In this document: positions 11,381-32,651 of the stretch, piece by piece
Layout of the letters: each line of letters begins with the position of its first letter
Position numbering within the stretch: position 1 is the stretch's first letter
Assembly (NCBI GenBank): GCA_938003855.1
Contig: CALKXD010000076.1
Location: forward strand, 1-39,727
Source: an uncultured Granulosicoccaceae bacterium
GTDB lineage: Bacteria > Pseudomonadota > Gammaproteobacteria > Granulosicoccales > Granulosicoccaceae
Length of the DNA: 39,727 bases
Reading direction: 5' to 3'
Notes under the pieces: generated by a model
The model's database searches: none
Told to the model about the DNA's origin: nothing
The model's input: the letters and a program-made list of their open reading frames with translations, nothing else
Position numbers and translations under genes: made by a program

Positions 11381-11381
11381 A

Positions 11382-13165: not shown

Positions 13166-13174
13166 CGTCTGCTC

Positions 13175-14089: not shown

Positions 14090-14177
14090 AGAGTGGTTTT
14101 CCGTGGATGATATCTAGATGAGTGCAGGCGGCGTGCGCCAAACCGACGTGGTCACAATTGTCTGCTTCGCATAAAAC

Positions 14178-14203
14178 AAAGCCGGGGTAGCCCCGGCTTT
14201 TTT
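14178..14203 (-). terminator. Terminator-like hairpin inside the importer operon
   Basis: AAAGCCGGGG (14178-14187) and CCCCGGCTTT (14191-14200) form a 10-bp stem around TAG. On the minus strand the stem is followed by GTTTTA, a partial T-tract. On the plus strand it is followed directly by TTT. Its place between the binding-protein gene and the permease gene fits partial termination, giving more binding protein than permease, as known for several importer operons. Confidence 0.65.
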
Positions 14204-14251
14204 CGCAACAGAATCTCGTACCGATTAACCAGTTAAACCAAACGCTCGCTG

Positions 14252-15505
14252 CTATTGCGCTTCACGTGGCCAGTTAACCTTGTGCGAGGCAAACGCAGAC
14301 GGTGCAACGACATTGTACTCACCATCCTGAATCTGCCGAAGTACCATTGGCTTGGCGATATTGTTGCCCGCTTCAGAGAACTTGATTGGGCCATAAAAGG
14401 TTTGCAGATCAGTGGCGGTAAGCGCTTCCCGAACCGCTTCTTTATCAGTGGTACCGGCACGTTCGAAGGCGTCTTTAAACACATAGACGGCAGCAGTTGC
14501 CTGAGCGGACTGGTAAGGTACTTTTTTACCATCATAATCACTGAACGTAGCTTTGAACTCTTGCTCGTAGTTAGAGGCGGTACCAAACAGTGCATCTTCA
14601 TAGGACAGCGACTCGGCCCACTGGGTAGAACACAGAATATCGTTTGCGGTATCGCCGAATTTGCCGGTTACATCAGCCGCTTCACAGTGTGTCAGCGCGA
14701 TCATCGGCACGTTAATTTTCATCTCACCAATCTGGCGAACAGCCGTGGCCGCCCCTTTTGAGTGACCACTGACAATAAGCAGGTCCGGCTTCAGCAGCTT
14801 GACTTTAGTCAGAATAGCGCTCATGTCAGATAGATCACGCGGCAGTTTTTCATCGATAACCGCCTTCATGCCAAACTTCTTGGCGTCTTCAAGGACACCG
14901 GCGCGGATATCGAGTGAGAACGGATCGTTTTCAACCGCGACCGCAATCTTGACAGAAGATGCGTCCTTTCCGGCTTCTTCCGCTTTCTCAGCTGCCAGCG
15001 CAACCGCAGAGGCCAGGTACTGCTCCGAGGTTGACAGAACTGCAAACAAGTATTTGTAACCCTTGTTGAACAGCGACCGTGAGGCACCTTCGGCTTCAAC
15101 CATCGGAATCTGGTATTTTTCAGTGACCGGTGCAATGGCTTTGGTCAGACCTGATGAGTATGGCCCCAGCATATACTGGACTTTATCCTGGTTTATCAGT
15201 CGCTCGGCCAGTGTAGCGCCACGATCACCCTTGGATTCATCGTCGTAGTAGATGACGTCGAAGTTGTAGCATTTGTCGCCAATATTGATACCACCGGCTT
15301 CACTGATTTTGGAGATCGCAAACTCATAACCGTTTTTTGCATGAATACCGTTGGTGGCATACTTTCCTGTCAAGGAGATAGCCGCACCGAGCGTTAAAGC
15401 CTCACAACCATTGATCTGCTTGGCTTCATCAGCGCTGAACGCAGCACCTGAGAACAGCAACACCGAACCGCTCAGGCACGCGGTGATCGCGGAAAGTATT
15501 TTCAT
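14252..15505 (-). CDS. Branched-chain amino acid type ABC transporter substrate-binding protein
   Basis: A periplasmic solute-binding protein of 417 residues. The signal peptide is MKILSAITACLSGSVLLFSGAAFS, with cleavage just before ADEAKQ. The type I periplasmic-binding fold begins with LTLGAAISLTGKYATNGIHAKNGYEFAI, typical of the Liv/aromatic-acid binding group. GGAGGGAA lies eight bases before the ATG, giving strong translation. It is the first gene of the operon. The ligand could be an amino acid, amide or aromatic acid, and nothing in the sequence decides it. Confidence 0.93.
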   Translation of the reverse strand: MKILSAITACLSGSVLLFSGAAFSADEAKQINGCEALTLGAAISLTGKYATNGIHAKNGYEFAISKISEAGGINIGDKCYNFDVIYYDDESKGDRGATLAERLINQDKVQYMLGPYSSGLTKAIAPVTEKYQIPMVEAEGASRSLFNKGYKYLFAVLSTSEQYLASAVALAAEKAEEAGKDASSVKIAVAVENDPFSLDIRAGVLEDAKKFGMKAVIDEKLPRDLSDMSAILTKVKLLKPDLLIVSGHSKGAATAVRQIGEMKINVPMIALTHCEAADVTGKFGDTANDILCSTQWAESLSYEDALFGTASNYEQEFKATFSDYDGKKVPYQSAQATAAVYVFKDAFERAGTTDKEAVREALTATDLQTFYGPIKFSEAGNNIAKPMVLRQIQDGEYNVVAPSAFASHKVNWPREAQ

Positions 15506-15740: not shown

Positions 15741-16514
15741 TCAGCCCGCAAACAACTGTCGCCGGACTTGTTCAGACACGGCGGCAATCTGTGCCTCGGA
15801 GAGTTCACCGACGATTACCACCGCATGCCGGCCGGTCTGCCAGTGGGCAAACCGCATGGTCGCATGCTCACCGATCACTACCGCCTGATCTTTACTTTGC
15901 GCCCGGCCGAGGATACACACAGCCACAGGTTTGTCGGATTCAGGCAGGTAGGTGAGTTGGATCAGCGGGTCGTCGCCAACCCCCAGTGTTTGCGAGCGAC
16001 GGAATTGCAAACCAAGCTCATCGAGCGCTGGTACCTGCATCGACCGGGATAACCGTGTCGAAATTTTCGCTGCAGCATCGGCAGGCAACTCCACGGCCGC
16101 TGCTGTCAGAGTTTCGCGCACATACAAACTGTGATAATCCGCCACCAGCCTGACCCACTCCGGCGGTGCATCGACTGCGGCCAGATCGGCCTCGGGAACC
16201 ACATAGCGCCCGGCGAAGACGCCTAACAGCAAGCCTCCGATGAGTGTCGCGACGATCGGCCAGAGCCGAAAGCCTGCTCGCGTCGTCGGCGTCTGCTCAG
16301 TGATCCCGACTTGCTCGAGCGACTCGGATGGGGCCTCCAGGTGACGATCAAATGCCTCAGCGAAAGGCAACTGTGTGGCCTTTAGTTGTTGTAGAAATTC
16401 GACCGCTGTTGGATCGCTTTGGATCAGCGCTTCAACTTCCGCCCGCTCGTTAGCGTCTGCCAGGTTATCGGCATAGCGGATAAGCAGGGCCTCGTTGCGA
16501 TGGTTTTCGATCAT
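15741..16514 (-). CDS. Membrane anti-sigma factor
   Basis: A 257-residue protein with a cytoplasmic N-terminus (about 1-80) starting MIENHRNEALLIRYADNLADANERAEVEALI, the pattern of anti-sigma factors of ECF sigmas. One transmembrane helix follows at about 84-101 (LWPIVATLIGGLLLGVFA), then a periplasmic domain of about 150 residues. It lacks the HxxxCxxC zinc motif of ZAS-type anti-sigmas. Its ATG overlaps the sigma stop by four bases (ATGA), so the pair is coupled. It should hold the sigma inactive at the inner membrane until its outer domain senses a signal. The signal is unknown. Confidence 0.82.
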   Translation of the reverse strand: MIENHRNEALLIRYADNLADANERAEVEALIQSDPTAVEFLQQLKATQLPFAEAFDRHLEAPSESLEQVGITEQTPTTRAGFRLWPIVATLIGGLLLGVFAGRYVVPEADLAAVDAPPEWVRLVADYHSLYVRETLTAAAVELPADAAAKISTRLSRSMQVPALDELGLQFRRSQTLGVGDDPLIQLTYLPESDKPVAVCILGRAQSKDQAVVIGEHATMRFAHWQTGRHAVVIVGELSEAQIAAVSEQVRRQLFAG

Positions 16515-19001: not shown

Positions 19002-20342
19002 CTAGCCAAGGTCGAAATATCTTTCCAGCTCGACGTCCGGCACCTTTGCAGCGAAGGCATCCAACTGGCTTTGGCGCGTGGCGGTGTAGGCCTGTATAAA
19101 TTCATCACTTAACCAATCTTTCGCAAAGTCACTGGCACCAAGTCGCTCAATGGCTTCTGGCATTGAACGCGCAAAGTCAGGGCCACCCCCTTGCGTGTAT
19201 CCATTGCCCTGCGTTTCTTCGCAGGGTTCTGTTTTGTTAATGATGCCATCAATACCGGCGGCAACCGTCGCCGCGACAGTCAGGTAGGGATTCGTATCAG
19301 CACCGGGCAGGCGGTTTTCAACACGCATAGATGCCGGGCTGTGGCCAACCGCCCTGAAGCAGGTAGTCCGGTTTTCATAGCCCCAGGTTAATCCGGGTGG
19401 TGCAAACGTACCTTCAGCAAAGCGCCGGTAGGAGTTAACCGTTGGCAGAAACAGCAACGACAAATCACCCAGGTGCTTTTGCAGACCACCAATGAAATGG
19501 CGGAACGTTGTCGACATTCCATGATCATTACGCTGATCATGGAACACTGATTCACCATCGTTGTTTTTCAGCGACACATGTATATGGATTGACTGACTGT
19601 CAGCGGTCTCGCTCCAACGCGGCATATAGGTAATGCACTTATCTTGTCGCGCAGCCAGCACCCGCAGGAAGTTTTTCAACAACACCAATTGATCGGCAGG
19701 CTCCAACCCTTCACCCGCAGCAATGCAGGCCTCCATGAATCCGCCACCGATTTCTTCATGCATTTTGGCTAGATTGATCCTCAGGTGCTCACACATTTGC
19801 GACACCGATTCATACCAGTCAGTCTGCTGCACCTGATAAATTAATAGATCATGGCTGTTGTGCAGGGTCGCCGTGTGCAGATTTCTATAACCCTTCGCAC
19901 GCGCAGTTAAATCAGTTTCGTTGAACAGCGTATACTCTAACTCGAGCCCATAACGTGGCTGATAACCCGCATCAGCCGCACGCCCGAGGACGCGTTGCAG
20001 CAGGGACCTTGGGCAGAGCTTGGCTGTGTCCCCGGTATAATTCGACAGCACCAGCAGATCATGCCCCGGCTTTGACCACGGCAGACGCCGCACGGTAGCC
20101 GGATCTATTAGCAGAGGATCATCGTGAAAGTCGGCGGTGTCATCCGAGATTCCCGGTATCGTGCCAATAACATCAGTGGGGTCGAGTGCCAATGTCACTG
20201 GTGCCATGCCCATACCATCACTGGCGATACCGGCAAGACTTTTAATAGAGACCATTTGCCCGCGCAATAGCCCGTTAGTGTCGGTCATGGCCACTGTAGC
20301 GTAGCGGCTGTCTTTGTTTTTCAGGTAGTCTTCAATAGTCAT
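19002..20342 (-). CDS. Glutamine synthetase family protein, PuuA/gamma-glutamylamide synthetase-like
   Basis: An ATP-dependent ligase of 446 residues with the glutamine synthetase fold. The N-terminal beta-grasp includes VAMTDTNGLLRGQMV. The catalytic part has the metal-binding GLELEYTLF, the EEIGGGFMEACIAAGEGLEPADQ segment, HIHVSL, and GWGYENRTTCFR- and RVENRLPGADTNPYL-type segments for phosphate and glutamate. It resembles PuuA-type enzymes, which join glutamate to an amine. Relatives act early in aniline (TdnQ) and isopropylamine (IpuC) degradation. It is the last gene of the catabolic block, and its ATG overlaps the TetR stop by one base. Ligation of glutamate to an amine substrate or intermediate is the likely role; the amine is unknown. 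Confidence 0.88.
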   Translation of the reverse strand: MTIEDYLKNKDSRYATVAMTDTNGLLRGQMVSIKSLAGIASDGMGMAPVTLALDPTDVIGTIPGISDDTADFHDDPLLIDPATVRRLPWSKPGHDLLVLSNYTGDTAKLCPRSLLQRVLGRAADAGYQPRYGLELEYTLFNETDLTARAKGYRNLHTATLHNSHDLLIYQVQQTDWYESVSQMCEHLRINLAKMHEEIGGGFMEACIAAGEGLEPADQLVLLKNFLRVLAARQDKCITYMPRWSETADSQSIHIHVSLKNNDGESVFHDQRNDHGMSTTFRHFIGGLQKHLGDLSLLFLPTVNSYRRFAEGTFAPPGLTWGYENRTTCFRAVGHSPASMRVENRLPGADTNPYLTVAATVAAGIDGIINKTEPCEETQGNGYTQGGGPDFARSMPEAIERLGASDFAKDWLSDEFIQAYTATRQSQLDAFAAKVPDVELERYFDLG

Positions 20343-21022
20343 CAGTCACCGGTCTTTCGATTGCAATCGATGGAAAGTAGCTTGAGTTGCTTTAAGTCAT
20401 CAGGGACTTGGGTTGAATAAGCCTTAATAAATACAGTCAGGCCATTAGTGATGTACCTGGCAAGCGAGTTTGTATCCGGTATATTATCCGGCATATACAA
20501 AGCCTGAGTGCGCGGCGCTGACAAAATAAGCCCCCATAGATCCTGGGCCGCTAGCTCGGAGTCATCAAACTGAAGCCGGCCTTGAACACGCTGTGATTCA
20601 AGGTAGGTAATCATGCCGCGTAATAGAAAGTCCGGCCCGGCAGCCTGATAAGCCGGGCCAATCTCCGGAAAGCGCTTGACCTCTGCGATCACCAATCGCG
20701 CCAGTGACAGCATATCGGGCCGCAATACAAAGGCGGCATAGGTCCAGCCAAACGCATGCAGTTGCGAAACCATATCCGTGTGAACCGGTTCGGTGAAAGC
20801 TTTTAGCATATGCTCACGCTGGGGTACCAGCATGGCCGTAAACAACTGCTCTTTTGCACCAAAGTACTGGTACAGGGTTGGCTTTGACACCTTCGCTTCA
20901 ACGGCAATGGCGTCCATAGTGGCCGCGCTATAGCCAGTCTCCGAAAACACCTTGAGCGCAGCATCGAGAATTCGCTTTTCCTTGGCAACCCGGTTTTGCT
21001 CGCGTTTATGCAGCGCTGTCAT
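20342..21022 (-). CDS. TetR family transcriptional regulator
   Basis: A 226-residue repressor-type protein. The N-terminal helix-turn-helix (about 14-60) reads RILDAALKVFSETGYSAATMDAIAVEAKVSKPTLYQYFGAKEQLF, followed by a helical ligand-binding and dimerisation domain. Its ATG overlaps the hydrolase stop by four bases and its stop overlaps the next ATG by one, so it is embedded in the operon. It may regulate this operon, with the dyad at 24774-24801 as one candidate site. That assignment is inference. Confidence 0.92.
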   Translation of the reverse strand: MTALHKREQNRVAKEKRILDAALKVFSETGYSAATMDAIAVEAKVSKPTLYQYFGAKEQLFTAMLVPQREHMLKAFTEPVHTDMVSQLHAFGWTYAAFVLRPDMLSLARLVIAEVKRFPEIGPAYQAAGPDFLLRGMITYLESQRVQGRLQFDDSELAAQDLWGLILSAPRTQALYMPDNIPDTNSLARYITNGLTVFIKAYSTQVPDDLKQLKLLSIDCNRKTGD

Positions 21023-22326
21023 GTTGGCATCCGTGCCAGAAAAGACAACAGCCGGGCGTTGAAGTCATCGGGTTGCTCGACATTGCACACGTGTCCGGCG
21101 TCAGAGATAACTTCAAACTGCACATCTGCGTACGGGTCACCGTGTTTCGCAACATCAGTGACAATACGCTGCGCCACACTGCGGATTTCAGCGGGCGGTG
21201 CCAGCCGGTCGTACTCGCCGGTCATCATCAGCACGGGCATGGTCAGGCAGGAGAAATCGAATCGCTCAGGCGGATGAGTAAAGCAGTTCAACGCGTCCCT
21301 GTAGGTAGCGGGGGTGATCGCCGCCATAGATTGATGCAGTTTTTTCCTGCTGGCTTTATCTGCATCGGGACCGGAAATAATATCCACCACATCAGCCGCA
21401 AAGTCAGCCGGTGCAAGCCCGGCATTCAAGGGGGCTTCACGACTCTGCCGGAAGGCGTCACGCGCTTGCGATGTCGCCTCGGACATACCGGTACAACCAC
21501 CGGACAATATCAGCCCTGCGAGTTTGTCTGCAAACCGCATCGCAAACGAGGTGGCGATCCAGGCCCCGTAAGACAAACCACACAGCACCAGTTTCTCAGC
21601 CCCCAGTTGCTCGCAGACACGGAGGATATCGGCGCAGTAATCATCCACTGTTGTCTGCCTCGAACCCGCCTCGCTGTCACCATACCCTCGCAAATCCAGC
21701 GCTGCGGTGCGCATGATGCTGCCAGTCACCGCTAATTGCGCATCCCAGTTGCAGCGACTGCCACCAATGCCGTGCAAAAAAAGACACAACGGACCATCAC
21801 CCCGCGGTGAAACAGAAACCGTCAGCGCCGGAGTGCCGCTGATTTTCAGCGGACTGGACTTCTGACCGGCATTAAACCTAGCGCCATCCTGCGCTGCCGG
21901 TGGCGCTGCACTAAGGCCTGCCAGCGCATCGATACCCGCATGGAATATTGCAGCGCTGCCGGTCGCAATCTCCTTTGCACGCGCCCCGGTTGCCGATACT
22001 TCTGCAGTCCAGCTGATTATACTGCCACCATTGTCCGTGCTTGTTATGTCGATACCGGCGTGGTAGCTGTCTGCGCCCTCTATACCGCTAAGATGCGAAT
22101 ACTGAAGACGGCGGTCAGTATCACTGCGATACGTTAACTGCTCGCGATACCGTGTTGTTTCACCACGCACCGTAAAAGCCCTGATCACTCGCTGCTGCTG
22201 ATCAGTCTCTGCATGGATAGTCTCTATAAGCGGGTGCCAGCCAACACAAAACTGCCGCACAACTCCCCATACCGCATCAGCACTTGAATCAAGGTGACGG
22301 GTGACTTCGACTTTTTCCTGCGGCAT
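21019..22326 (-). CDS. SRPBCC domain - alpha/beta hydrolase fusion
   Basis: A two-domain protein of 435 residues. Residues 1-145 form an SRPBCC/polyketide-cyclase-like helix-grip domain, starting KVEVTRHLDSSADAVWGVVRQF. Residues about 165-430 form an alpha/beta hydrolase with the oxyanion segment FLHGIGGSRCNWD, nucleophile elbow CGLSYGAW, acid in MMTGEYDRLAPP and His in ISDAGHVCN. SRPBCC domains bind hydrophobic ligands, so the N-terminal part may hold or present the substrate cleaved by the hydrolase. The start at 22326 lies just after the acyl-CoA dehydrogenase stop; the 26 additional upstream in-frame codons overlap that gene and look non-homologous. The substrate is unknown. Confidence 0.85.
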   Translation of the reverse strand: MPQEKVEVTRHLDSSADAVWGVVRQFCVGWHPLIETIHAETDQQQRVIRAFTVRGETTRYREQLTYRSDTDRRLQYSHLSGIEGADSYHAGIDITSTDNGGSIISWTAEVSATGARAKEIATGSAAIFHAGIDALAGLSAAPPAAQDGARFNAGQKSSPLKISGTPALTVSVSPRGDGPLCLFLHGIGGSRCNWDAQLAVTGSIMRTAALDLRGYGDSEAGSRQTTVDDYCADILRVCEQLGAEKLVLCGLSYGAWIATSFAMRFADKLAGLILSGGCTGMSEATSQARDAFRQSREAPLNAGLAPADFAADVVDIISGPDADKASRKKLHQSMAAITPATYRDALNCFTHPPERFDFSCLTMPVLMMTGEYDRLAPPAEIRSVAQRIVTDVAKHGDPYADVQFEVISDAGHVCNVEQPDDFNARLLSFLARMPT

Positions 22327-22330
22327 CGCG

Positions 22331-23635
22331 CTAGCCGGCCAGCACGTCGGCATAACCACGCCACAGTGAATTGCGTGAGGTGTCGGGATCACCGGGTGCG
22401 TCATCGAGCTCGTCGGTGTCGTAGAGCGTCAGTACAGACAGGTAGTCTTCCATAATCTCAGAGGTGTAGGGCAGCATCAGCGCACCACAGCGACTGTCGC
22501 GATAGATCCGCTCAAGCGGCAGCGACTTCAACATCGCCTGACCGCCGCAGGTTCGAATGGCCATGGCGGCAATTTCCTGCACACCTTCCATCACATTGTA
22601 TTGAGCCGCATACATCCGCAACACCTGCCCTTTTGACGGAAAGCTCTGCGCCTCCATAAACACCTGCCACCACAGCGCACGCATCGCCGCAAGTTTCGAA
22701 TACATTTGACCGACCGTATGGCGCTTGGTGGCATACATGCGACGATCAGCCGCTGGTTGGCCGGGCACCTCACCACGTAAATACGCCACGGTAAAATCAA
22801 ACGCGCCCTGTGCAACGCCCATATAGGTCGGCGACAGCGTTGCCATCATGTGTGGCCAGTGCGGCAGTGTTTTTATAAAAATACCGCGCGGCATCATGAG
22901 ATCCTGCTCTGTGACGAATACATCTTTCAGCACCAGATCACGACTGTTAGTCCCGCGCATGCCGAGCGGATCCCACTCGCCCTGCACCGACAGGCCCACA
23001 GCATCTTTACTGACCACAAATATCATGGTGTCTTCGTGGCGAGGTTCTGTATCCGCAAAGTGCTCGGTACAGACGATTGAGTAATAGTCGCAGTAACCGG
23101 CAAGACTGGCGAATTTCTTAAATCCGTTAATCTTCCAGCCTCCCGCTACTTTTTCACAGCGCGTTTGCGCCGGTTTTGATGTCCAGTTCTGACCAGCTTC
23201 CGAAATTGGCTGGGAGTAGATACCCTGCTCTTCTACCGCGCGGCGAAACTGTCGCTCACGCAATGGCGCAAACTGTGCGCGTTCGTCATCGGTCAGATGC
23301 GGCATCTCATACATAAAGCGTGACCACATCATTGACGAGTTATGCATATTAAAGGTAAGTGCCGTCGCCCCGCAGTACTTGCCGATCTCGGCCCCCGCCA
23401 TGGCATATTCCCCCAGGCTGAATCCGTGCCCGCCAAATGCCGTGGGTACCGTCAGTGTCAGCAAGCCTTCGGCTGCCAGGTCGTGGTAATTATCGACAGG
23501 AAAGCTCGCGCCGTCATCGATTGACTTTGCTCTATCGACAAAGCGTGTTCGACCGAGTTCATTAATACGGTTGAGCACGACCGCCACCTCCGGCCGAATA
23601 CGCGACAGATCATAATAGTCGCCAATGTCACTCAT
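22331..23635 (-). CDS. Acyl-CoA dehydrogenase family flavoprotein
   Basis: An FAD-dependent enzyme of 434 residues with all three acyl-CoA dehydrogenase domains: the N-terminal helices (LAAEGLLTLTVPTAFGGHGFSLGEYA), the middle beta domain (SQPISEAGQNWTSKPAQTRCEKVAGGWKINGFKKFAS) and the C-terminal helices ending LPYTSEIMEDYLSVL. The ATG at 23635 has AGGAGA nine bases upstream; an earlier frame start at 23686 lacks support. In this setting it could desaturate a CoA ester. Some family members instead act as flavin monooxygenases or nitroalkane-oxidase-like enzymes on non-CoA substrates. No CoA ligase gene is present in the block, which leaves this open. Confidence 0.9.
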   Translation of the reverse strand: MSDIGDYYDLSRIRPEVAVVLNRINELGRTRFVDRAKSIDDGASFPVDNYHDLAAEGLLTLTVPTAFGGHGFSLGEYAMAGAEIGKYCGATALTFNMHNSSMMWSRFMYEMPHLTDDERAQFAPLRERQFRRAVEEQGIYSQPISEAGQNWTSKPAQTRCEKVAGGWKINGFKKFASLAGYCDYYSIVCTEHFADTEPRHEDTMIFVVSKDAVGLSVQGEWDPLGMRGTNSRDLVLKDVFVTEQDLMMPRGIFIKTLPHWPHMMATLSPTYMGVAQGAFDFTVAYLRGEVPGQPAADRRMYATKRHTVGQMYSKLAAMRALWWQVFMEAQSFPSKGQVLRMYAAQYNVMEGVQEIAAMAIRTCGGQAMLKSLPLERIYRDSRCGALMLPYTSEIMEDYLSVLTLYDTDELDDAPGDPDTSRNSLWRGYADVLAG

Positions 23636-23700
23636 AGTAATTCTCTCCTGATATTCTATACGCTTGCGGGCGGGCCGGATAACCAACAGACGCCAGTCGA

Positions 23701-24750
23701 CTATCGAGCCAGTTCACCCTGCAGTACCCCCTCTACCACCACCGCCTCGCCATCAAGTTCAATGGTGCAGGCACGCATCGGCAGATCAAAGTGGCCTTCG
23801 GTAAAACGACCCGCGTACTGGTTCGCTCCGGTTGACCAGAGGAAGTTACCGGCCCACGCTCTAAATTCAACCGCCTGCATATCGCGTTTATCGTAGAGCG
23901 CCCCGGACACCCAGCGCGCATCCGGATTCATACCCCATCCGACGTGCGAAAATCCATACGCTTTAGGATCGTCCCAGGCGGCCATGTAATCGCGAAACAA
24001 CTCGGCATCGAGCCCGCGGCCTTTTATTTCGGTGACAAAGTCGTTTTCGACAGTGAAGTCAATTTGACTCGACAGGTAGGTTTTGAAAGTCAGGTTCATG
24101 TCGCCGACATCCATCACAATGCGACCATTGACGGTGTTCGGTCCCGGGAACGCCAAACACAACCCCCCCGGCCAATGCGCGACGTGACCCGGTGTTGTCC
24201 CGAAACCCGCGGTGCCACCACAAGGCGCGTCGCGTATATCTATAGTGAGATCGGTACCGGCTTTGGAGGTCACTCTCATCTGCGATGCCGCCTGCAACAT
24301 CTGCACACCCAGATCAACCTTCGGCCCGAGCCAGGCCTTCGGTTCAGTGCGCTCCAGTATCTCAGGGTGCTCGTTGGTCACCACCAGAATGCGGCCACCG
24401 GCGGCCTCAACCTCGGGCCACTCCGGGGAGTGAATCATGCCCTCTACAGTGCAGTCGACGACGATCTCACATTGCTTCATTGCTTCAATCGCAGCACGGT
24501 TGTGCTGTATGGCTAGTGACGTGCCGGTACCTTTCACCGGCACTGGCGCGGTCTGCGGCGGGCTTGGCATCTTCAACATGCAGAAATCAGCACCGAGATC
24601 GTACAATGCCAGTTCCGCCAGATGAACCAGTACCGGCCGCGACTGTGTCTCGGATATCAGCGCGACTGTGGAGCCCTGCTGAATTCCATTGAGCGCAAAC
24701 ACACGACGAAACGACGCCAGCCATTTTCCTTCAATACGTTCCTGCAGCAT
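23701..24750 (-). CDS. NicX-like protein (2,5-dihydroxypyridine 5,6-dioxygenase family)
   Basis: A 349-residue protein closely matching the length and sequence plan of NicX, the Fe(II) enzyme that opens 2,5-dihydroxypyridine to N-formylmaleamate in nicotinate degradation. The family resembles M29 aminopeptidases. The three NicX iron ligands appear conserved: His269 in FSHVGWGMNPDARW, and His320 and Asp322 in EGHFDLPMRACTIELD. Other matching segments are RVTSKAGTDL, VMDVGDMNLTFKTY and FLWSTGANQYAG. The ATG at 24750 has AGGGG upstream; a GTG at 24774 would add eight residues. The full nic set (nicC, nicE, nicF) is absent, so the substrate may be a different hydroxypyridine or related ring. Confidence 0.82.
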   Translation of the reverse strand: MLQERIEGKWLASFRRVFALNGIQQGSTVALISETQSRPVLVHLAELALYDLGADFCMLKMPSPPQTAPVPVKGTGTSLAIQHNRAAIEAMKQCEIVVDCTVEGMIHSPEWPEVEAAGGRILVVTNEHPEILERTEPKAWLGPKVDLGVQMLQAASQMRVTSKAGTDLTIDIRDAPCGGTAGFGTTPGHVAHWPGGLCLAFPGPNTVNGRIVMDVGDMNLTFKTYLSSQIDFTVENDFVTEIKGRGLDAELFRDYMAAWDDPKAYGFSHVGWGMNPDARWVSGALYDKRDMQAVEFRAWAGNFLWSTGANQYAGRFTEGHFDLPMRACTIELDGEAVVVEGVLQGELAR

Positions 24751-24773
24751 GCCAAGCCCCCTGATCACATGCA

Positions 24774-24801
24774 CAATACTTTACTACACAGTTTAGTATT
24801 G
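24774..24801. promoter_or_regulatory. Nested dyad upstream of the NicX-like gene
   Basis: CAATACT (24774-24780) and AGTATTG (24795-24801) are perfect inverted arms with 14 bases between them. Inside lies a second dyad, TACTA-N7-TAGTA (24782-24798), in an alternative register. It occupies the 100-base gap between the GNAT stop and the NicX-like ATG. This is a plausible operator (for example for the TetR protein of the same block) or an mRNA hairpin. Confidence 0.4.
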
Positions 24802-24850: not shown

Positions 24851-25282
24851 CTAGTTTAAAACAAGCACGTGCGATGCACTGCTATCACTGATCGCCGAAA
24901 ATCCAAGTAACTCATAAAAGCGGCCGGTGTTTTTGTCCGGTACCCGCAAACGTATTCGCGAAAAGTGATTCGCTGAGTGCTCAATGCATTGCCGAACCAA
25001 CGCCGCGCCGATTCCGCCGGCACGGAACTCCGGCAGTACGTACAGATGGCGAAGCCGGGCCACGCTGCGATCACAGACATAGGGATCGAGGTTGATACCA
25101 CAGACACCAACGGTTCGGTTGTCACTGCTCGCAGTGAAAAAAACCTCGCCGTCGCGATCAAAGCAATTACTCTGCTGCCGCCACTCGTCAGTTAACCGAC
25201 GAACAAAAACAAAACCCTCGGCCTCGCTTTGCAGTACCAGGTCGTCAATATCGGCCGGCAGTCCGGTGACAGTCTGGATCAT
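24851..25282 (-). CDS. GNAT family N-acetyltransferase
   Basis: A 143-residue acetyltransferase. The acetyl-CoA pyrophosphate loop is RAGGIGAALV in the segment LRHLYVLPEFRAGGIGAALVRQC (about 80-102). The C-terminal segment RLRVPDKNTGRFYELLGFSAI is the typical last strand-helix. It starts 20 bases after the upstream hydrolase stop, within the catabolic operon. It could acetylate an amine intermediate or be a bystander; the sequence does not decide. Confidence 0.87.
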   Translation of the reverse strand: MIQTVTGLPADIDDLVLQSEAEGFVFVRRLTDEWRQQSNCFDRDGEVFFTASSDNRTVGVCGINLDPYVCDRSVARLRHLYVLPEFRAGGIGAALVRQCIEHSANHFSRIRLRVPDKNTGRFYELLGFSAISDSSASHVLVLN

Positions 25283-25302: not shown

Positions 25303-26229
25303 CTACGGCTGTTCGGTGGTCGCATTCACAACTGGATGGCGAATCGTGCCGATGCCTTCCACTGCCGCCACTACAACATCACCCGGCCATAACCACTCCT
25401 GCGGTGATCGCCCTGCACCTACACCTTCCGGGGTACCGGTGGCAATGATGTCTCCGGGTTCGAGTGTCATACCGGTGGAGATATCTGCTATCAGATGATC
25501 TACTTTAAACAACATGTTACGGGTATTGCCACGCTGTTTTTCGACACCATTGACGGTAAGCCAAAGCACCAGATTGTGCGGATCGGGGATTTCATCCGCC
25601 GTGACAATACAGGGACCGAACGGCGCATAGGTGTCCTGCCCTTTGGAGAATATCCACTGACCGGAGCGACGGTTATCACGCGCTGAAACATCGATCATGA
25701 CGGAGTATCCAAACACGTGGTCAAGTGCATCCTGTTTGCGAATCTTCTTTGCCGATGACCCGATAATAACCGCGAGTTCAACTTCCCAATCGAGCTGCGC
25801 GGTCATGTTGGCATCGTGGTCTATCGCACCCCCCGGGCCGATGACACTGGTCGGCGGCTTGGTGAACAGCACCGGCTTGTCCGGCAGATCTTTTGATGTA
25901 TCAAGAGTTTTAGCGCTTTCAGCCACGTGTTCCACGTAGTTCAGGCCAATGCCCCAGATATTCTTACGCGGCCGCGGGATCGGTGCCAACAACGTAACAT
26001 TCGACAACGCTTCAGCGGTGTGGATGGGCGGGGTGTCTCCAGCCTGATCAACTAATGCCTGCAACGCAGCAAGACCCGGTCGCCCGCTATCAATCAACTC
26101 GAGCATCGAGCAGGGCATTTCTTCACCATTTGCCGCCCCCAGATCTTCAACGTCGATAACAAGGTCATTCACGACAGCACCCAGTCGCGCCTCTGCTTCA
26201 ACGCCAGAGCGATAAGTCACTAGTTTCAA
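25303..26229 (-). CDS. Fumarylacetoacetate hydrolase family protein, TTG start
   Basis: A 308-residue C-C bond hydrolase or isomerase. The FAH core holds the metal site in LDWEVELAVIIG (two Glu) and VMIDVSARD (Asp), the substrate segment SKGQDTYAPFGPCIV, and TGTPEGVGAGR. Family members cleave acylpyruvates such as fumarylpyruvate or maleylpyruvate, the product line of gentisate-type ring opening. The gene follows a gentisate-dioxygenase-like gene, so acylpyruvate cleavage to pyruvate plus a dicarboxylate is the likely step. The start is TTG at 26229 with AAGGA six bases upstream, and MKLVTYRSG is a normal family start. Confidence 0.9.
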   Translation of the reverse strand: MKLVTYRSGVEAEARLGAVVNDLVIDVEDLGAANGEEMPCSMLELIDSGRPGLAALQALVDQAGDTPPIHTAEALSNVTLLAPIPRPRKNIWGIGLNYVEHVAESAKTLDTSKDLPDKPVLFTKPPTSVIGPGGAIDHDANMTAQLDWEVELAVIIGSSAKKIRKQDALDHVFGYSVMIDVSARDNRRSGQWIFSKGQDTYAPFGPCIVTADEIPDPHNLVLWLTVNGVEKQRGNTRNMLFKVDHLIADISTGMTLEPGDIIATGTPEGVGAGRSPQEWLWPGDVVVAAVEGIGTIRHPVVNATTEQP

Positions 26230-26268: not shown

Positions 26269-27393
26269 TCAGGCAGAGACTGGTTGATAACCATTGTTAT
26301 CGGAAAACGCCTGCTCCCTGTAGAAATTAAACGCACGCATTACCGGCAGATCCGACAGACAGAACAGGCAGGCGTCGTCAGTGTCGGACGCATTGACGTG
26401 CTCGTGCCAGGCCCACGAAGGCACACAGAAGATGTCTTTTTCACGCCAGTCATAGCGCTTGCCATTAATGATTGAATGTCCCTCACCTTTCGCCACATGA
26501 TAAAGATAGCTGCCCGTATGGCGATGCGCCTTGGTATGTTCTGACGCCCGAAGCAACTGCATGGACGCGCCCATGGTCTGCATCACAGGACCGTTGCTGG
26601 TCGGGTTGACGTACTCCATTAGTACTCCATCGTATGGCGATCCATCCGTACACGCGGCATACTTTAAAAGAGCCTCATAAGTTGGCAGCCATTCGTATTT
26701 ATACATCGGGCTATACGCTTCTGACCATTTACCATTGGCCGGTGTAAGACCGGGGTTGCCCCAGGTTTTGGTGGTATCGTCGACGGCATAACCTACCGCC
26801 TGGGTAAGATCAGGGTGAACCTCAAAAAAACCCGCTTCCATGGCGTTAACAAATGGAATATCGAGACCATCCTGCCAGATACAGGGTGTACCGGTCGGCT
26901 CAACACCGTGCTCATGCCATGTGCCATTAGGCGTGAGTACAAAGTCGTTTTCACCGAGCGTCATTTTATGACCATCGACCACCGTGAAAGCACCCTCACC
27001 TTCCATAATAAAGCGTATGGCACTGGCTGAGTGACGATGCGCCGCCGCATCTTCACCGGGGTTCATCACCTGCAGACCGGCATACAGCCAGCCCACTGCT
27101 GCGGACACATCTGACCGACCCGGGTTGTTTAGATAAATCACCCGTCGACCGGCCTTTTCCGCGGTCACCAGGTCTACCGACCGCAACACATGCTCACGAA
27201 GATCAGCGTATCGCCAAACCACCGGAATCGATTGCGACTTCGGCTCCCAGGGCTCTATCTTGTTGGCGACCGTCCACAGTGCGCCAGCGTGGTAGTTATC
27301 AAGCTCATCGTAGTAGGCCAATAGCTCGGGCGTATCTTCGACATTGGCTCTGCCAACGACGTCTTCCCGATGATTCCCCGGTTCCTTGCCCAT
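26269..27393 (-). CDS. Gentisate 1,2-dioxygenase-like bicupin
   Basis: A ring-cleaving Fe(II) dioxygenase candidate of 374 residues with two cupin domains. The N-terminal cupin (about 95-185) has the metal ligands of gentisate dioxygenases: His119 and His121 in AAAHRHSASAIRF, and His160 in PNGTWHEHG. The C-terminal cupin (about 285-350) has KAHRHTGSYLYHV and PSWAWHEHV, so histidines are retained there too. Gentisate enzymes give maleylpyruvate; relatives act on 1-hydroxy-2-naphthoate, salicylate or aminosalicylate. GGAGG lies eight bases before the ATG. An FAH-family gene follows 39 bases later, matching ring opening then acylpyruvate hydrolysis. The exact aromatic substrate is unknown. Confidence 0.88.
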   Translation of the reverse strand: MGKEPGNHREDVVGRANVEDTPELLAYYDELDNYHAGALWTVANKIEPWEPKSQSIPVVWRYADLREHVLRSVDLVTAEKAGRRVIYLNNPGRSDVSAAVGWLYAGLQVMNPGEDAAAHRHSASAIRFIMEGEGAFTVVDGHKMTLGENDFVLTPNGTWHEHGVEPTGTPCIWQDGLDIPFVNAMEAGFFEVHPDLTQAVGYAVDDTTKTWGNPGLTPANGKWSEAYSPMYKYEWLPTYEALLKYAACTDGSPYDGVLMEYVNPTSNGPVMQTMGASMQLLRASEHTKAHRHTGSYLYHVAKGEGHSIINGKRYDWREKDIFCVPSWAWHEHVNASDTDDACLFCLSDLPVMRAFNFYREQAFSDNNGYQPVSA

Positions 27394-27585: not shown

Positions 27586-29067
27586 TCAGCGCATCACAAA
27601 CGGATTGGCCATCGGTTTATCTGAGGTGTTTATCCAGGTGGTTTTTGTGCGGGTGTAATCCATGATCGAATCCATCCCTGCCTCACGACCGTACCCCGAC
27701 TGGTTGTAGCCACCAAAGGGCGCAATCGGCGACACGGCACGGTAGGTATTGACCCAGCAAATCCCGGAGCGCAAGCGGTTGGAAACCCGATGCGCGCGAG
27801 CAACGTTTCCGGTAAACACCCCCGACCCCAGACCGAAATCGCTGTCATTGGCAAAGCCAATCACCTGTTCCTCCGTATCGAACGGCACCAATGACATCAC
27901 CGGGCCGAACATTTCTACTTTCAGCGTTTCGACACTGGTATCACGGCACTCAACCAGTGTCGGGTTGAAATAATTGCCGTTCAGGTTGTCGGTTCTTGAA
28001 CCACCGGCCCTGATGACCGCACCCTGTGCAACAGACTTTTTTAAGGTCGCTTCGATACGTTCAATCTGCGCGTTAGTACACAGCGGACCGACATGGGTAT
28101 TGGCGTCCTGAGGATCTCCAACCACAATGTGCCGCGAGCGTTCGGCAACTTCTTCAACAATCCGATCAAAGATTCCACGCTGCACAAACCCGCGTGATCC
28201 CGCCACACACGATTGTCCGGATGCCCCCCAATTGCCCGCGATAAGCCCGTTCACAGCATTTTCTATATCGGCATCGTCAAAAACGATGATTGGCGACTTA
28301 CCACCCAACTCAAGGGATGTCACCGCAAAATTCTCTGCCGAGTTACGAACAACATGCCGTGCGGTTTCAGGTCCGCCGGTAAACGCTATTCTGTCGACGT
28401 CCGGGTGACGGGTCAGTGGTATCGCACAGTTCTCTGCATCGCCGGTGATCACAGAGATAACACCGGGTGGAAAACCGGCCCTCTCTATAAGACGGGCAAA
28501 CTCAAACATAGGTGCCGGGGCGAGTTCAGAGGCCTTCAATACCACCGTACACCCAGCGGCCAGGGCCGGCCCCACCTTGGTGGCGGTCAAGAACATTTGC
28601 GCATTCCACGGGACAACAGCCGCGACCACGCCTATCGGCATACGCCGGGTGAACACGTGCATATCCGGTTTATCGATTGGCAGTACCGATCCTTCGATCT
28701 TGTCGGCTAGCCCTGCAAAGTAACGGTAGTAGTCGCCAACATAGCGCGATTGAGAAATAGTCTCCGTTGCAAGCTTACCGCTGTCGCTTGTTTCAACCCG
28801 ACCGATAGTCTCGGCGGATTGGTCGATCAGATCAGCCAGCCTGTACAGCAGTTTGCCCCGGTTGGTTTGCGTCATGTCGCGCCAGACCGGATTATCAAGC
28901 GCCTGTCTTGCTGCAGTCACCGCACGGTGCACGTCGTTCTCTGATGCACAGGCAAACGTCGCCCAGGCTTGAGAGGTCGCCGGATTGATACTTTGGTCGG
29001 TCTGCCCCTCGCTGCCCTCGCACCAGGCACCGTCAATATACAGTTGATAATGGGGAAGTGAACTCAT
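27586..29067 (-). CDS. NAD(P)-dependent aldehyde dehydrogenase
   Basis: A full-length aldehyde dehydrogenase of 493 residues. Key residues are Asn155 in VVPWNAQ, Lys178 in VVLKASELAP, Glu253 in LELGGKSP and Cys287 in GQSCVAGSR, with the FAFTGG-type motif here as IAFTGGPETA. The ATG at 29067 is preferred over an in-frame TTG at 29094, which has no ribosome site. In the catabolic block it would oxidise a semialdehyde from ring opening or from the LLM monooxygenase step, as in pathways for hydroxymuconic or formamido-type semialdehydes. The substrate is inferred only from neighbours. Confidence 0.93.
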   Translation of the reverse strand: MSSLPHYQLYIDGAWCEGSEGQTDQSINPATSQAWATFACASENDVHRAVTAARQALDNPVWRDMTQTNRGKLLYRLADLIDQSAETIGRVETSDSGKLATETISQSRYVGDYYRYFAGLADKIEGSVLPIDKPDMHVFTRRMPIGVVAAVVPWNAQMFLTATKVGPALAAGCTVVLKASELAPAPMFEFARLIERAGFPPGVISVITGDAENCAIPLTRHPDVDRIAFTGGPETARHVVRNSAENFAVTSLELGGKSPIIVFDDADIENAVNGLIAGNWGASGQSCVAGSRGFVQRGIFDRIVEEVAERSRHIVVGDPQDANTHVGPLCTNAQIERIEATLKKSVAQGAVIRAGGSRTDNLNGNYFNPTLVECRDTSVETLKVEMFGPVMSLVPFDTEEQVIGFANDSDFGLGSGVFTGNVARAHRVSNRLRSGICWVNTYRAVSPIAPFGGYNQSGYGREAGMDSIMDYTRTKTTWINTSDKPMANPFVMR

Positions 29068-29107
29068 GGTGGTATCCAGTGGTAAATTAGACAATCTATA
29101 TTTTCGA

Positions 29108-30145
29108 TCAGCTATTGAAGGCAGGCATTACATCATTTATGAAACGGGTCAGTGAGGCACGCTTTCTGTCGATAGACATCCCGCTGTCGATCCAGAATGA
29201 AAACTCATCATAGCCGAGGTCCTCGTAACGCTTGATCTGATCAATAACCTGTTGCGCCGTGCCTATCGTCAGATCCCGCAGCATGTTTTCCGGCGCCATC
29301 ATTGTATTGTCGCGTATATCCTGCTCGCTCAAGGGGTCTAAATGCCCTTGCTGTACGGTTCGTTTGTTCTGAAACCACGCACCGAAATAGTTATAAAACC
29401 GGCTCAGCTCGACAGCCCCGGCCTGTACATCATCACTGTCTTTTGCCACATAGGTATGGTGCAACAGCATAATCTTCGGTCGTGCACCACGGTAGCTGCT
29501 GCAGGCATCGTTAAAACGCTGCATCAGACTGGCTATTTCATCATAGCCCTGCCACAACGGAGTAACCTGTACATTAAAACCATTGTGTACGGCAAATTCG
29601 TGGCTGTTCGGGTCACGGGCTGCAATCCATATCGGCGGACCACCCTCTTGCAGCGGCTTAGGTGCGGAAGTTGTTGACGGGAAGTTATAGAACTCCCCCT
29701 GATGCGCACAATCCCCTTGCCACAGCTGCCTTAACAGAGGGGTGGTTTCACGCATTCTCTGGCCCGCCTCCCAGGCATCAAGCCCGGGCATCATGCGTTC
29801 GTACTCATATGAGTAAGCGCCGCGGGCAACCCCCAGCTCAAGCCGTCCGCCGGTTACCAGGTCCGTCATCGCTGCCTCGCCGGCCAGTCTTATCGGGTGC
29901 CAGAACGGCGCGATGATGGTACCGGTACCCAGCTTGACATTCCGGGTATGGCGCGCCACATCAGCAATAGTAATAAACGGATTCGGCGCGATGGTAAATT
30001 CCATACCATGGTGCTCACCAGTCCAGATAGCACGCATACCGCCTTCATCAGCAAGTGTGCACAAGCTCAGGAAATCTTCGTAAAGCTGGCTATGATTCTG
30101 AGTCTCGCTCAGGCGCTCCATATGAGTAAACAGAGAGAATTTCAT
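29108..30145 (-). CDS. LLM flavin-dependent monooxygenase (luciferase-like)
   Basis: A luciferase-like monooxygenase of 345 residues. The TIM-barrel starts MKFSLFTHMERL, continues with AIWTGEHHGMEFTIAPNPFITIADVARHTRNVKLGTGTIIAPFWHPIRLAGEAAMTDLVTGGRLELGVARGAYSYEY (the bacterial-luciferase signature region), and ends with a TIGTAQQVIDQIKRYEDLGYDEFSFW flavin-site segment. AGGA sits seven bases before the ATG, and the upstream gene, a flavin reductase, ends three bases away. The pair forms a natural two-component monooxygenase. Comparable pairs start degradation of pyridine and other N-heterocycles by oxygenating and opening the ring. Confidence 0.92.
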   Translation of the reverse strand: MKFSLFTHMERLSETQNHSQLYEDFLSLCTLADEGGMRAIWTGEHHGMEFTIAPNPFITIADVARHTRNVKLGTGTIIAPFWHPIRLAGEAAMTDLVTGGRLELGVARGAYSYEYERMMPGLDAWEAGQRMRETTPLLRQLWQGDCAHQGEFYNFPSTTSAPKPLQEGGPPIWIAARDPNSHEFAVHNGFNVQVTPLWQGYDEIASLMQRFNDACSSYRGARPKIMLLHHTYVAKDSDDVQAGAVELSRFYNYFGAWFQNKRTVQQGHLDPLSEQDIRDNTMMAPENMLRDLTIGTAQQVIDQIKRYEDLGYDEFSFWIDSGMSIDRKRASLTRFINDVMPAFNS

Positions 30146-30148
30146 GGC

Positions 30149-31081
30149 TTAATCCTGTTTTTCCGCAAGCGGGTGTATTTCACCTGATTCAGCACTGCCG
30201 ACGTACAGGCCAAATTGCCTGATACGGCTCTCTGCGACAAATCGGGCCATCATGGTTGCCAGCGCGTGATCATTGAACGGCAGGTTCTTCAGCGACTCAA
30301 TGGTTTCAAACGATCCCAGCTCACCGGTGTCGGCCGTCGTCGCCCGGGCGCGTATATAGGTGTAACGTTTTTGCCGGGTGCTATCTTCGTACACCGAATA
30401 GACAGGCCCCAGATCCACTGTTAAACCCAACGCATGAAAATGTTTTTGCAGTGAGCTTCGAGCACCACTACCTGCCGTTTGTGCAATACAGGGCAGTGAT
30501 GCACCGTCATTATCAGTCGCCACCAGAATACGGCCGTTACATTCCACAATAGCACCCGCCACACTTTCATAACCGGCTAGTCCGGGAGCATCAGCCTGCT
30601 GTTCTTTACTTAAGCTGAAATACCCGTTACTGCAGTAGCCAAGCCCTTGCCGGTTACTGCCGGATAATGCCAATACTTCACCAACCAAAACCAGATGATC
30701 ACCGGCAACATGACGCTGGTGCACCCGGCAGCTGAAGGTGGCAACCGCACCGTCAATTAACGGCACACCATGCATACCCTGATGCCACGGCGTGTTGTCG
30801 AACCGGTCGTCCACACTGCTGGCAAACTCGTTTGACACCGCTTCCTGTCCTTCAGCCAGAATGCTTACACCAAAATGTCTGACGGTATTAAAGAGTCCAA
30901 ATGACGACAAGTGGTTACCCGGACAAACCAGTAACAATGGCGGATCTATAGAGACTGATGTAAACGAGTTTGCGGTAAAACCTGCCAGTTCGCCGCTGTC
31001 AGAGCGCGCTGTCACGACAGTCACACCCGTCATGAAACTACCAAACGCACGTCGCAGGGTTTGCGCATCAAACTGACTCAT
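30149..31081 (-). CDS. Flavin reductase with degenerate Nudix-like C-terminal domain
   Basis: A 310-residue fusion. Residues 1-165 are a flavin reductase-like FMN-binding domain (FGSFMTGVTVVTARSDSGELAGFTANSFTSVSIDPPLLLVC; GDHLVLVGEVLAL) that supplies reduced flavin. Residues about 172-250 read like a Nudix fold (VAGAIVECNGRILVATDND, LQKHFHALGLTVDLGPVYSVYED, RYTYIRAR). The catalytic Nudix box is lost: the REUxEE position reads QKHFHA. The tail may sense a ligand or regulate rather than hydrolyse. The ATG overlaps the upstream hydrolase stop by four bases. It is the evident partner of the LLM monooxygenase encoded next. Confidence 0.88.
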   Translation of the reverse strand: MSQFDAQTLRRAFGSFMTGVTVVTARSDSGELAGFTANSFTSVSIDPPLLLVCPGNHLSSFGLFNTVRHFGVSILAEGQEAVSNEFASSVDDRFDNTPWHQGMHGVPLIDGAVATFSCRVHQRHVAGDHLVLVGEVLALSGSNRQGLGYCSNGYFSLSKEQQADAPGLAGYESVAGAIVECNGRILVATDNDGASLPCIAQTAGSGARSSLQKHFHALGLTVDLGPVYSVYEDSTRQKRYTYIRARATTADTGELGSFETIESLKNLPFNDHALATMMARFVAESRIRQFGLYVGSAESGEIHPLAEKQD

Positions 31082-31902
31082 ACAACACCGCCTGTTTTAA
31101 CTGAATGCCCGGGTAAAAAGCACCTCGTCAGCGCTTGCACGACCTGATCACCGTGCGTCATCGACATCATATGGCGCGCGCCCTCCACAATGTAGCATCG
31201 CGACCCGGGCACCAGCTGGCTCATGCGTTGCGACATTTCGGGTGTCGAATTCGGCTCGAGTGATCCGGTCATAAACAACGCCTGACAGGTTACTTTTGTC
31301 AACTGTTGATCAGTCGGCGCATCAGCCCTCGCAAAGGCTCTATAAGCGTCACGATACCCGATCGGATCCGCCGCATTCAGCCAGACCCGACAGGCCTTAC
31401 TGGCATCGGCATTGATACCTTCAGGCGCTGCGCCAAACCAGCGTTCAAGGGTTGCTGCAGGATCAGTCACCGGCGCAGAGTCGGTGGAGATGGCCTGTGT
31501 TAACTCAGCGACACGCGCATTGATCGCTGCCAGTGCTTCACTGGTACGCCGGTAGACTCCATTTAGTACGGCAATACCGGACACCTTTTTTTTGTAGCGC
31601 ACGGCCAGATCCAGGGCGATCAATGCCCCCATGGAATGCCCGACCACAATGGCCGGTCGAGCATCCGATAGCACTGCGGAAATCTGATCCGTATAGTCTG
31701 CCAAGTCGGGGTGATCGGCTTCGAGACGCGGACTGTTAGCATGCCCCGGCATATCTATTACCGTTAAAGAAAAGTGTCTGGCAAGCTGCGGTTCTATATT
31801 GATCCAGTAATCAGCGCGCATACCCACACCGTGGATCAACAGCATGGCTGGCCCGTTACCGTGGCAGCGACTGTTTATGTGTTCAACGCAGTAAGTAGTC
31901 AT
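31078..31902 (-). CDS. Alpha/beta hydrolase
   Basis: A 274-residue hydrolase. The oxyanion segment is LLIHGVGMRADYW, the nucleophile elbow VVGHSMGA has Ser90, and the late His is in EGARHMMS. The usual acid position reads GSLEPNS, with Glu where Asp is common. Size and motifs resemble NicD-type deformylases and meta-cleavage hydrolases. With a NicX-like and an LLM monooxygenase in the block, hydrolysis of an N-formyl or acyl ring-opened intermediate is plausible. It is coupled to the downstream reductase gene by a four-base overlap. Confidence 0.87.
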   Translation of the reverse strand: MTTYCVEHINSRCHGNGPAMLLIHGVGMRADYWINIEPQLARHFSLTVIDMPGHANSPRLEADHPDLADYTDQISAVLSDARPAIVVGHSMGALIALDLAVRYKKKVSGIAVLNGVYRRTSEALAAINARVAELTQAISTDSAPVTDPAATLERWFGAAPEGINADASKACRVWLNAADPIGYRDAYRAFARADAPTDQQLTKVTCQALFMTGSLEPNSTPEMSQRMSQLVPGSRCYIVEGARHMMSMTHGDQVVQALTRCFLPGHSVKTGGVV

Positions 31903-31967
31903 CGGTGCTATTCGACAGGTTCGGTGGTTTTAACCAGGTATCTCATCCGTTTGCAATCGTGCTTGCG

Positions 31968-32567
31968 TTAGATGCCAGCCGGGTTATCAACATCGTGCTC
32001 CAAGTCTTTTAGATCCTGATAGCGGTCACCGATGCGATGGTGCGGCCTGCCGCCGCTGGCCCCTCCAAGTACCAGGACTAGCTCATCTGCTCTGGGTGCG
32101 TCATTTATCGAAAACTGAATGGTCAGGTAATGCGAGCGACGCCCGGCGTCGTGCTTATCCATTAACGGCACTGCAATCGGCGCATTAGCCGGTCCACGGG
32201 TATTGCTGAAGGCAAGATAACTGCTCGCCGCCACGGCAGTTCGGTAAAAATTGCCGAAACGCAGTGTGTGAATAAGCGCGGAGGCATGTTCAATCTCGCC
32301 GTCCAATCCGACCACCGCCGCCTTGCCATAGGCTTCAATTTTATCGCCTCCTCCGGCCAGCGCGATAATACGTTGCGTCAGCGCTTCACCCAGGAGCGGA
32401 CCGTAGGCCATTATCTCAGGCTTCAGATCTTCAACGAACCGACCCGCCCAGGGGTTGGTCACGACCACCGCTACGGCAAACGTGCGCCAGGGTTCGGCGG
32501 CGGGCTTAAAACCCTCGATATGTATCTCTTCATCAAAGGTGACGAATTTGCGTATTTCAGGCTTCAT
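31968..32567 (-). CDS. DUF1185 (amino acid synthesis family) protein
   Basis: A 199-residue protein of the DUF1185/PF06684 type, recognisable from EIRKFVTFDEEIHIEG at the start, NPWAGRFVEDL, EAYGKAAVVGLDGEIEHASALIH, and DAPRADELVLVLGGASGGRPHHRIG near the end. The biochemical role of the family is not established, but members often sit beside LLM monooxygenase and flavin reductase genes. It is the first gene of the catabolic block. The ATG at 32567 matches the family start; a TTG at 32633 would add an atypical tail reaching towards the LysR promoter. Confidence 0.85.
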   Translation of the reverse strand: MKPEIRKFVTFDEEIHIEGFKPAAEPWRTFAVAVVVTNPWAGRFVEDLKPEIMAYGPLLGEALTQRIIALAGGGDKIEAYGKAAVVGLDGEIEHASALIHTLRFGNFYRTAVAASSYLAFSNTRGPANAPIAVPLMDKHDAGRRSHYLTIQFSINDAPRADELVLVLGGASGGRPHHRIGDRYQDLKDLEHDVDNPAGI

Positions 32568-32651
32568 CAGAGCGCTACCCTTTGCCGGGACATATTGGAC
32601 GGTAACTTTCTGATAAAACGTCGTTTCTGACAAACGATAAATTCGGGGCCA

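Follow-up and report, generated by a model that had tools for sequence, protein, structure and literature searches.

What does a NicX-type enzyme act on when the rest of the nic pathway is not found beside it? The question is raised by a gene on the minus strand (23701..24750) of the window, by which we mean the whole 39,727-nucleotide stretch of DNA analysed, from an uncultured Granulosicoccaceae bacterium. We placed the gene using phmmer, a residue table, a tree and a start-codon check. The surrounding open reading frame, 23701-24774 on the minus strand, encodes 357 aa counted from a GTG; the likely start is the ATG at 24750, since it is preceded by purine-rich sequence and the alignment with relatives begins at residue 9. 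Residue numbers given below follow the 357-aa frame beginning at 24774. Among all PDB chains, the only phmmer match was NicX of Pseudomonas putida (PpNicX; 7cn3/7cnt/7cup), at E 2.8e-57 over residues 21-350, which bears out the NicX-like assignment made in a preliminary description of this DNA. Searches against Pfam and NCBIfam returned no matching family model for the protein. The genome holds a single NicX copy in a genome-wide search, and an AlphaFold2 model, with an input alignment of close relatives alone, reached a pLDDT of 48, too low for the ligand geometry to be read from it.

The metal site is intact. PpNicX binds iron through His265, Ser302, His318 and Asp320, with Arg293 holding Asp320 (PMC7910607), and the residue table places all four ligands in the window protein as H277, S314, H328 and D330. 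Three further PpNicX residues are also kept: Arg293 as R305, H189 as H200 and H105 as H115. The preliminary description was therefore right that the ligand residues are preserved (H277, H328 and D330), but the numbers it gave, 269/320/322, are slightly off the PpNicX positions 265/318/320, and it missed Ser302. Judged from its sequence, the gene product is a NicX-family mononuclear Fe(II) ring-cleaving dioxygenase with an intact metal site, and not a peptidase. The preliminary description had itself raised the M29 aminopeptidases as an alternative, and close relatives in plasmid records (NZ_CP083351.1 and NZ_CP015007.1; L001 and L002) are automatically annotated as 'peptidase M29'. With the NicX ligand set complete, and with the Pfam M29 model PF02073 matching neither this protein nor anything else in its genome, we find the peptidase reading scarcely credible and rejected it; going by homology, the label on these relatives is a misannotation of a NicX-family dioxygenase.

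Within the family, the protein belongs to a separate branch. We sampled 398 genomes of the phylum, and their NicX-like sequences fall in three sets by percent identity: branch A at 71% or more, branch B at 49-53%, and NicX proper at 34-41%, the last in loci that mostly contain nicD, nicE and nicF. In a tree made by a quick method and rooted at its midpoint, fully supported splits set off branch A and, separately, NicX proper, and A and B together lie opposite NicX proper. On this phylogeny, branch A and its sister branch B are separate from true NicX. The substrate pocket differs as well. In NicX, Glu177 hydrogen bonds N1 and O1 of 2,5-dihydroxypyridine (2,5-DHP), with E177A retaining 2.7% activity, and Glu308 is the gating residue (PMC7910607). 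The first position is Glu in 13/13 NicX proper sequences, Thr in 90/90 from branch A, and Val or Asn in branch B; the second is Glu in NicX proper, Tyr throughout the 90 branch A sequences, and Phe, Val or Ser in branch B. The window protein has Thr188 and Tyr320 at these positions, so the DHP-pocket pair is absent. Measured against PpNicX (7cn3; PMC7910607), then, the protein shares whole-length homology, the iron ligands, Arg293 and His189, but differs in Glu177 (Thr), Glu308 (Tyr), its clade and its lack of nicC, nicD, nicE and nicF neighbours. We take the replacement of both glutamates to argue for a substrate without a 2-hydroxy/lactam group. The different substrate supposed in the preliminary description is thus probable, given branch-wide loss of the pair and a conserved operon, and the enzyme probably acts on something other than 2,5-DHP.

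This bears on whether the gene could be an ordinary 2,5-DHP 5,6-dioxygenase feeding a dispersed nic pathway. nicD, nicE and nicF are absent from the window and from the 4-kb branch A and B loci scanned. Using NicE and NicF from a true nic operon as queries, the genome search suggested in the preliminary description yielded only weak look-alikes in the window's genome: the best NicE-like match had 28% identity (E 1.3e-8, contig C7) and the best NicF-like match had 42% over just 66 aa. A nic pathway elsewhere in this genome was rejected on these matches. The fully conserved iron site suits an ordinary 2,5-DHP dioxygenase, but Glu177 and Glu308 are replaced in all 90 branch A sequences, the nicE and nicF matches are weak, and the operon is unlike true nic operons, which in most of the loci examined have nicD, nicE and nicF around nicX. 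We consider this reading very improbable.

The operon around the gene is strongly conserved. In a one-genome-per-species scan, the best 80 loci are 73-89% identical and come from Rhodobacterales, Rhizobiales, SAR116, Granulosicoccaceae and a bryozoan symbiont; these, with a few plasmid and sample genomes, constitute branch A. The common order begins with an optional FCD regulator, a gentisate 1,2-dioxygenase-like gene (GDO), a fumarylacetoacetate-hydrolase family gene (FAH), an optional nitrilase, an optional flavin-reductase-like gene and NicX-like, and continues with an ACAD-like gene, an SRPBCC/hydrolase gene, TetR, a glutamine-synthetase-like (GS-like) gene, flavin reductase and an APC permease. 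Counting loci with at least 6.5 kb of downstream sequence, ACAD-like and SRPBCC/hydrolase genes follow NicX-like in 77/77, with TetR in 74/77 and GS-like in 70/77. Branch B loci contain NicX-like, hydrolase, ACAD-like and CoA ligase genes and a divergent flavin reductase. The window copy reads GDO, FAH, GNAT, NicX-like, ACAD-like, hydrolase, TetR, GS-like; the GNAT acetyltransferase (24851..25282, minus) sits between FAH and NicX-like, where relatives have a nitrilase and/or flavin-reductase-like gene. Looking by annotation in the open-access literature, we found no description of this operon.

As stated in the preliminary description and seen here by Pfam, ACAD-like and SRPBCC-hydrolase genes follow the NicX-like gene. 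The label 'acyl-CoA dehydrogenase' for the first (22331..23686, minus; Pfam ACAD domains, alignment to 1ws9 and 5gj7) did not survive alignment: Pro406 stands where the true acyl-CoA dehydrogenase 1ws9 has its catalytic Glu (YEGTSEI/GEGTSEI motif), and this proline is invariant among the aligned sequences of branches A and B. Because the catalytic Glu is lost and a reductase is encoded alongside, the protein is, from what is known of the family, probably the oxygenase part of a two-component flavin monooxygenase. The upstream hydroxylase reported as absent nearby would thus have been overlooked in this gene. A predicted structure, again from an alignment of close relatives alone, had a pLDDT of 40, likewise too low to be of use. 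In the window neither an HpaC/RutF-type reductase nor an APC permease adjoins the operon. A flavin reductase at 30149-31081 might serve it, although the adjacent luciferase-type monooxygenase is its likelier partner. That pair is part of a minus-strand set just upstream (27586-32633) of aldehyde dehydrogenase, luciferase-type monooxygenase, flavin reductase, alpha/beta hydrolase and a PF06684 'amino acid synthesis' protein, with similar genes (30-55%) near NicX-like in L005 and partly in L024; the set resembles pyridine/trigonelline ring-opening sets. Elsewhere, L002 (20707-21885) and orthologues in Mesorhizobium and Rhizobium operons encode a flavin reductase that carries a fused LysR-type substrate-binding domain but no DNA-binding domain, an arrangement suggestive of gating by an effector. 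Downstream on the operon strand, a branched-chain-type ABC transporter (binding protein, two permeases, two ATPases; 10523-15505) is possibly an uptake system replacing the APC permease of relatives. A 257-aa open reading frame without Pfam match at 15741-16514 adjoins an ECF-type sigma factor and is possibly an anti-sigma factor.

The third member of the invariant trio fuses an SRPBCC domain to an alpha/beta hydrolase (21019..22404, minus; Pfam). Alignment to the esterase 4uhh shows a full triad, S278/D399/H438, with S278 as the nucleophile; we propose that the protein is a deformylase, and by analogy it reads as occupying the slot of NicD. It is followed by a TetR/AefR-type regulator (20342..21022, minus) and a GS-like ligase (19002..20342, minus) that scores under the cut-offs of every NCBIfam GS equivalog and has a possible role in gamma-glutamylation of an amine. 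Among relatives, L010, L038, L045, L060 and L078 have a P450 gene close to the operon, and several of these five have a second GS-like gene; L010 and L078 also have a class I glutamine amidotransferase and an HpaH-like hydratase, and L045 has a ferredoxin. Set against the Azospirillum nic operon (L004: monooxygenase, nicE, nicD, nicX, nicF), the window shows the same logic of flavin hydroxylase, ring cleavage and alpha/beta hydrolase, but its hydroxylase has the ACAD fold and a separate reductase, its hydrolase carries the SRPBCC domain, and a GS-like ligase, TetR and often GDO/FAH stand in place of NicE and NicF. By this comparison, we infer that the trio follows the scheme of NicC-NicX-NicD but uses other proteins for the first and last steps.

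We hypothesize that the ACAD-fold flavin monooxygenase and its reductase would hydroxylate an N-heterocycle, that the NicX-like enzyme would then cut the C-C bond between the C-OH and C-N carbons to leave an N-formyl (N-acyl) amide, and that the SRPBCC-alpha/beta hydrolase would strip the formyl group. The unit attacked would be C(OH)=CH-NH, cleaved between its two carbons, so that 2,5-DHP would give N-formylmaleamate and indoxyl would give N-formylanthranilate. The substrate would most likely be a benzo-fused ring, such as 3-hydroxyindole (indoxyl), rather than 2,5-DHP. Indoxyl would pass through N-formylanthranilate and anthranilate into the 2-aminobenzoyl-CoA pathway, and in about half of the operons, including that of the window, the GDO/FAH arm may take 5-hydroxylated anthranilate instead. 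We favor this mechanism, which fits the pocket change, the partner genes and the genomic link described below; that the trio hydroxylates, opens and deformylates a benzo-fused N-heterocycle of the indoxyl type and releases anthranilate is nonetheless a tentative proposal, to which we give somewhat less than an even chance. It leaves the GS-like ligase and APC permease unexplained, and both point to an amine. Together with the GDO arm, these genes are superfluous for plain indole, and an indole with a substituent at position 3 would not be open to direct cleavage of this kind. Bacterial indole degradation by iif/ind clusters likewise uses a flavin monooxygenase with a reductase and ends at anthranilate, and N-formylanthranilate has been reported as an intermediate in some strains (PMC6221969, PMC9871250). 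The open-access literature yielded no description of a NicX-type enzyme in indole degradation. The iif cluster uses other ring-opening proteins.

The genomic link came from a 72% relative, L129, which has a 770-aa fused FAD monooxygenase/old-yellow-enzyme gene nearby. This is the architecture of 2-aminobenzoyl-CoA monooxygenase/reductase; the NCBIfam family that the fusion matches above cut-off is salicylyl-CoA 5-hydroxylase/oxidoreductase, not 2-aminobenzoyl-CoA monooxygenase. In the 398-genome sample, the fused gene occurs in 19/19 genomes with branch A or B versus 50/379 others (Fisher 3.5e-16; 1.6e-9 by genus, with 12 genera), values that are overstated because the sampled genomes are related. 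Where NicX proper is the sole type present, 8/15 genomes have the fused gene, a weaker enrichment (p 1.7e-4) indicating that lifestyle contributes to the link. In four lineages the fused gene is close to NicX-like: the distance is shortest in G390 and G388 (4.5 kb), followed by five genomes of the genus g110 (7.7 kb), G231 (15 kb) and Shinella (21-22 kb). In Shinella the stretch between the two genes includes tryptophan 2,3-dioxygenase and kynureninase, each scoring over its curated cut-off, and by its gene content the entire region is a tryptophan-anthranilate-CoA island. For branch B, genome G328 (L121) has tryptophan dioxygenase and kynureninase some 3 kb away from NicX-like. The window's genome has, consecutively on contig C281 (L174), monooxygenase/reductase, SDR, MarR, enoyl-CoA hydratase, ACAD, CoA ligase and RidA genes, and on a different contig a tryptophan dioxygenase; Ruegeria pomeroyi has the same kind of cluster beside its tryptophan dioxygenase. 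From its genes, we assign the C281 cluster to the 2-aminobenzoyl-CoA pathway, with activity on 2-aminobenzoyl-CoA over salicylyl-CoA being putative. Its counterpart is the aerobic 2-aminobenzoyl-CoA pathway of Azoarcus evansii (PMC4539516), which has the fused monooxygenase/reductase, CoA ligase and beta-oxidation genes that are linked to these operons, but which would form a lower pathway outside the NicX-like trio. Since the kynureninase in the same loci itself yields anthranilate, the link is one of shared context and not proof that the operon makes anthranilate; for anthranilate production by the NicX-like operon it is suggestive only.

The remaining genes form an arm around GDO. The window GDO (26269..27393, minus), a bicupin, matches gentisate 1,2-dioxygenase 3bu7, its best PDB match, over its full length (553 bits), but it scores 309.7 bits against NCBIfam gentisate_1_2, under the cut-off of 442, and also falls under the NCBIfam 5-aminosalicylate cut-off; in relatives it has a linked amidase. 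The FAH family protein beside it (25303..26229, minus), a proposed maleyl/maleamyl-pyruvate hydrolase, occurs in 35/36 relatives with GDO and in none without. A nitrilase-family amidase is present in 21/36 operons with GDO versus 0/40 without (p 1.9e-9, the genomes being related). In two Mesorhizobium loci (L035, L042), this amidase accompanies a NicE-type maleate isomerase gene (71% to Azospirillum NicE) just upstream of NicX-like, and among branch A loci the NicE-type gene occurs only there. The absence of a downstream amidase and maleate isomerase noted in the preliminary description is thus true of the window, but not of relatives' operons, where such genes come with the GDO arm. The linked amidase suggests an amino-substituted GDO substrate. 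Acting on 5-hydroxyanthranilate, GDO would leave C2 as an amide, giving maleamylpyruvate, then maleamate and pyruvate, and from maleamate maleate and fumarate. By chemical reasoning, this route would use each of the GDO, FAH, amidase and isomerase genes. A gentisate route for anthranilate via 5-hydroxyanthranilate has been reported in Nocardia opaca (PMC4539516), and a 2018 review gives no enzyme for it (PMC6221969).

How far do other substrates account for these observations? A substituted monocyclic hydroxypyridine other than 2,5-DHP, converted through a maleamate-type product to maleate and fumarate, would retain the ring chemistry of NicX, the sole characterised relative, and would reduce the anthranilate link to lifestyle. 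The NicE-type isomerase and amidase of L035 and L042 are consistent with it, as is the luciferase-type monooxygenase, flavin reductase and aldehyde dehydrogenase set neighbouring the window operon. However, the amidase is tied to the GDO/FAH arm (21/36 versus 0/40) and so need not serve the NicX-like step, for which reason we set it aside as evidence for a pyridine route; the genomic link to the anthranilate-CoA cluster is tight, and the lactam-binding Glu177 is gone. We regard a monocyclic pyridine as unlikely. Homarine catabolism was tried as a source pathway and rejected, as no supporting gene was found in the open-access literature.

An aminophenol- or hydroxyanthranilate-type aromatic amine, which the GS-like ligase might gamma-glutamylate in the manner of aniline degradation, would account for the GS-like gene of 70/77 operons, the common APC permease and a glutamine amidotransferase beside the operon in L129, since aniline degradation uses a GS-like enzyme and an amidotransferase (PMC4539516). 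Yet in the stretches read, branch B shows the trio but no GS-like gene, and GS is missing from seven branch A loci. The trio can thus do without the ligase, and we think an amine distinctly unlikely. Slightly less probable again is the opening of a hydroxyquinoline or of a 4-quinolone, with kynurenate as one conceivable source, to an N-acyl or N-formyl arylamine. This shares the bond logic and anthranilate endpoint of the indoxyl mechanism and would suit the tryptophan dioxygenase and kynureninase near the operon in Shinella and L121; quinaldine degradation also ends at anthranilate, with a CoA ligase and monooxygenase/reductase (PMC3534580). Against it, C2-C3 cleavage of a 4-quinolone would yield an arylglyoxylate and reach anthranilate only through a further step, for which no enzyme is seen in the conserved trio.

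Returning to the indoxyl mechanism, its fullest form has two parts: a new NicX branch that opens the pyrrole ring of a 3-hydroxyindole-type compound to N-formylanthranilate, as a third indole-to-anthranilate pathway beside iif and iad, and a GDO/FAH/amidase/maleate-isomerase arm that takes anthranilate along the gentisate route, by way of 5-hydroxyanthranilate and maleamylpyruvate. That both parts hold is a speculative proposition, and we think it rather unlikely as a whole. Were N-formylanthranilate the product, the branch would put an enzyme to a step that has been proposed in indole catabolism since 1953; the GDO arm, for its part, may provide the missing genes of the anthranilate gentisate route, for which the review names no enzyme (PMC6221969). 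NicX is the sole member of its dioxygenase subclass that a PDB search found with a solved structure, and its relatives are by default labelled 'peptidase M29' or '2,5-dihydroxypyridine dioxygenase'. Since branch A is common in soil and sea alphaproteobacteria and its operon is strictly conserved, one enzyme assay would assign a function to hundreds of genes.
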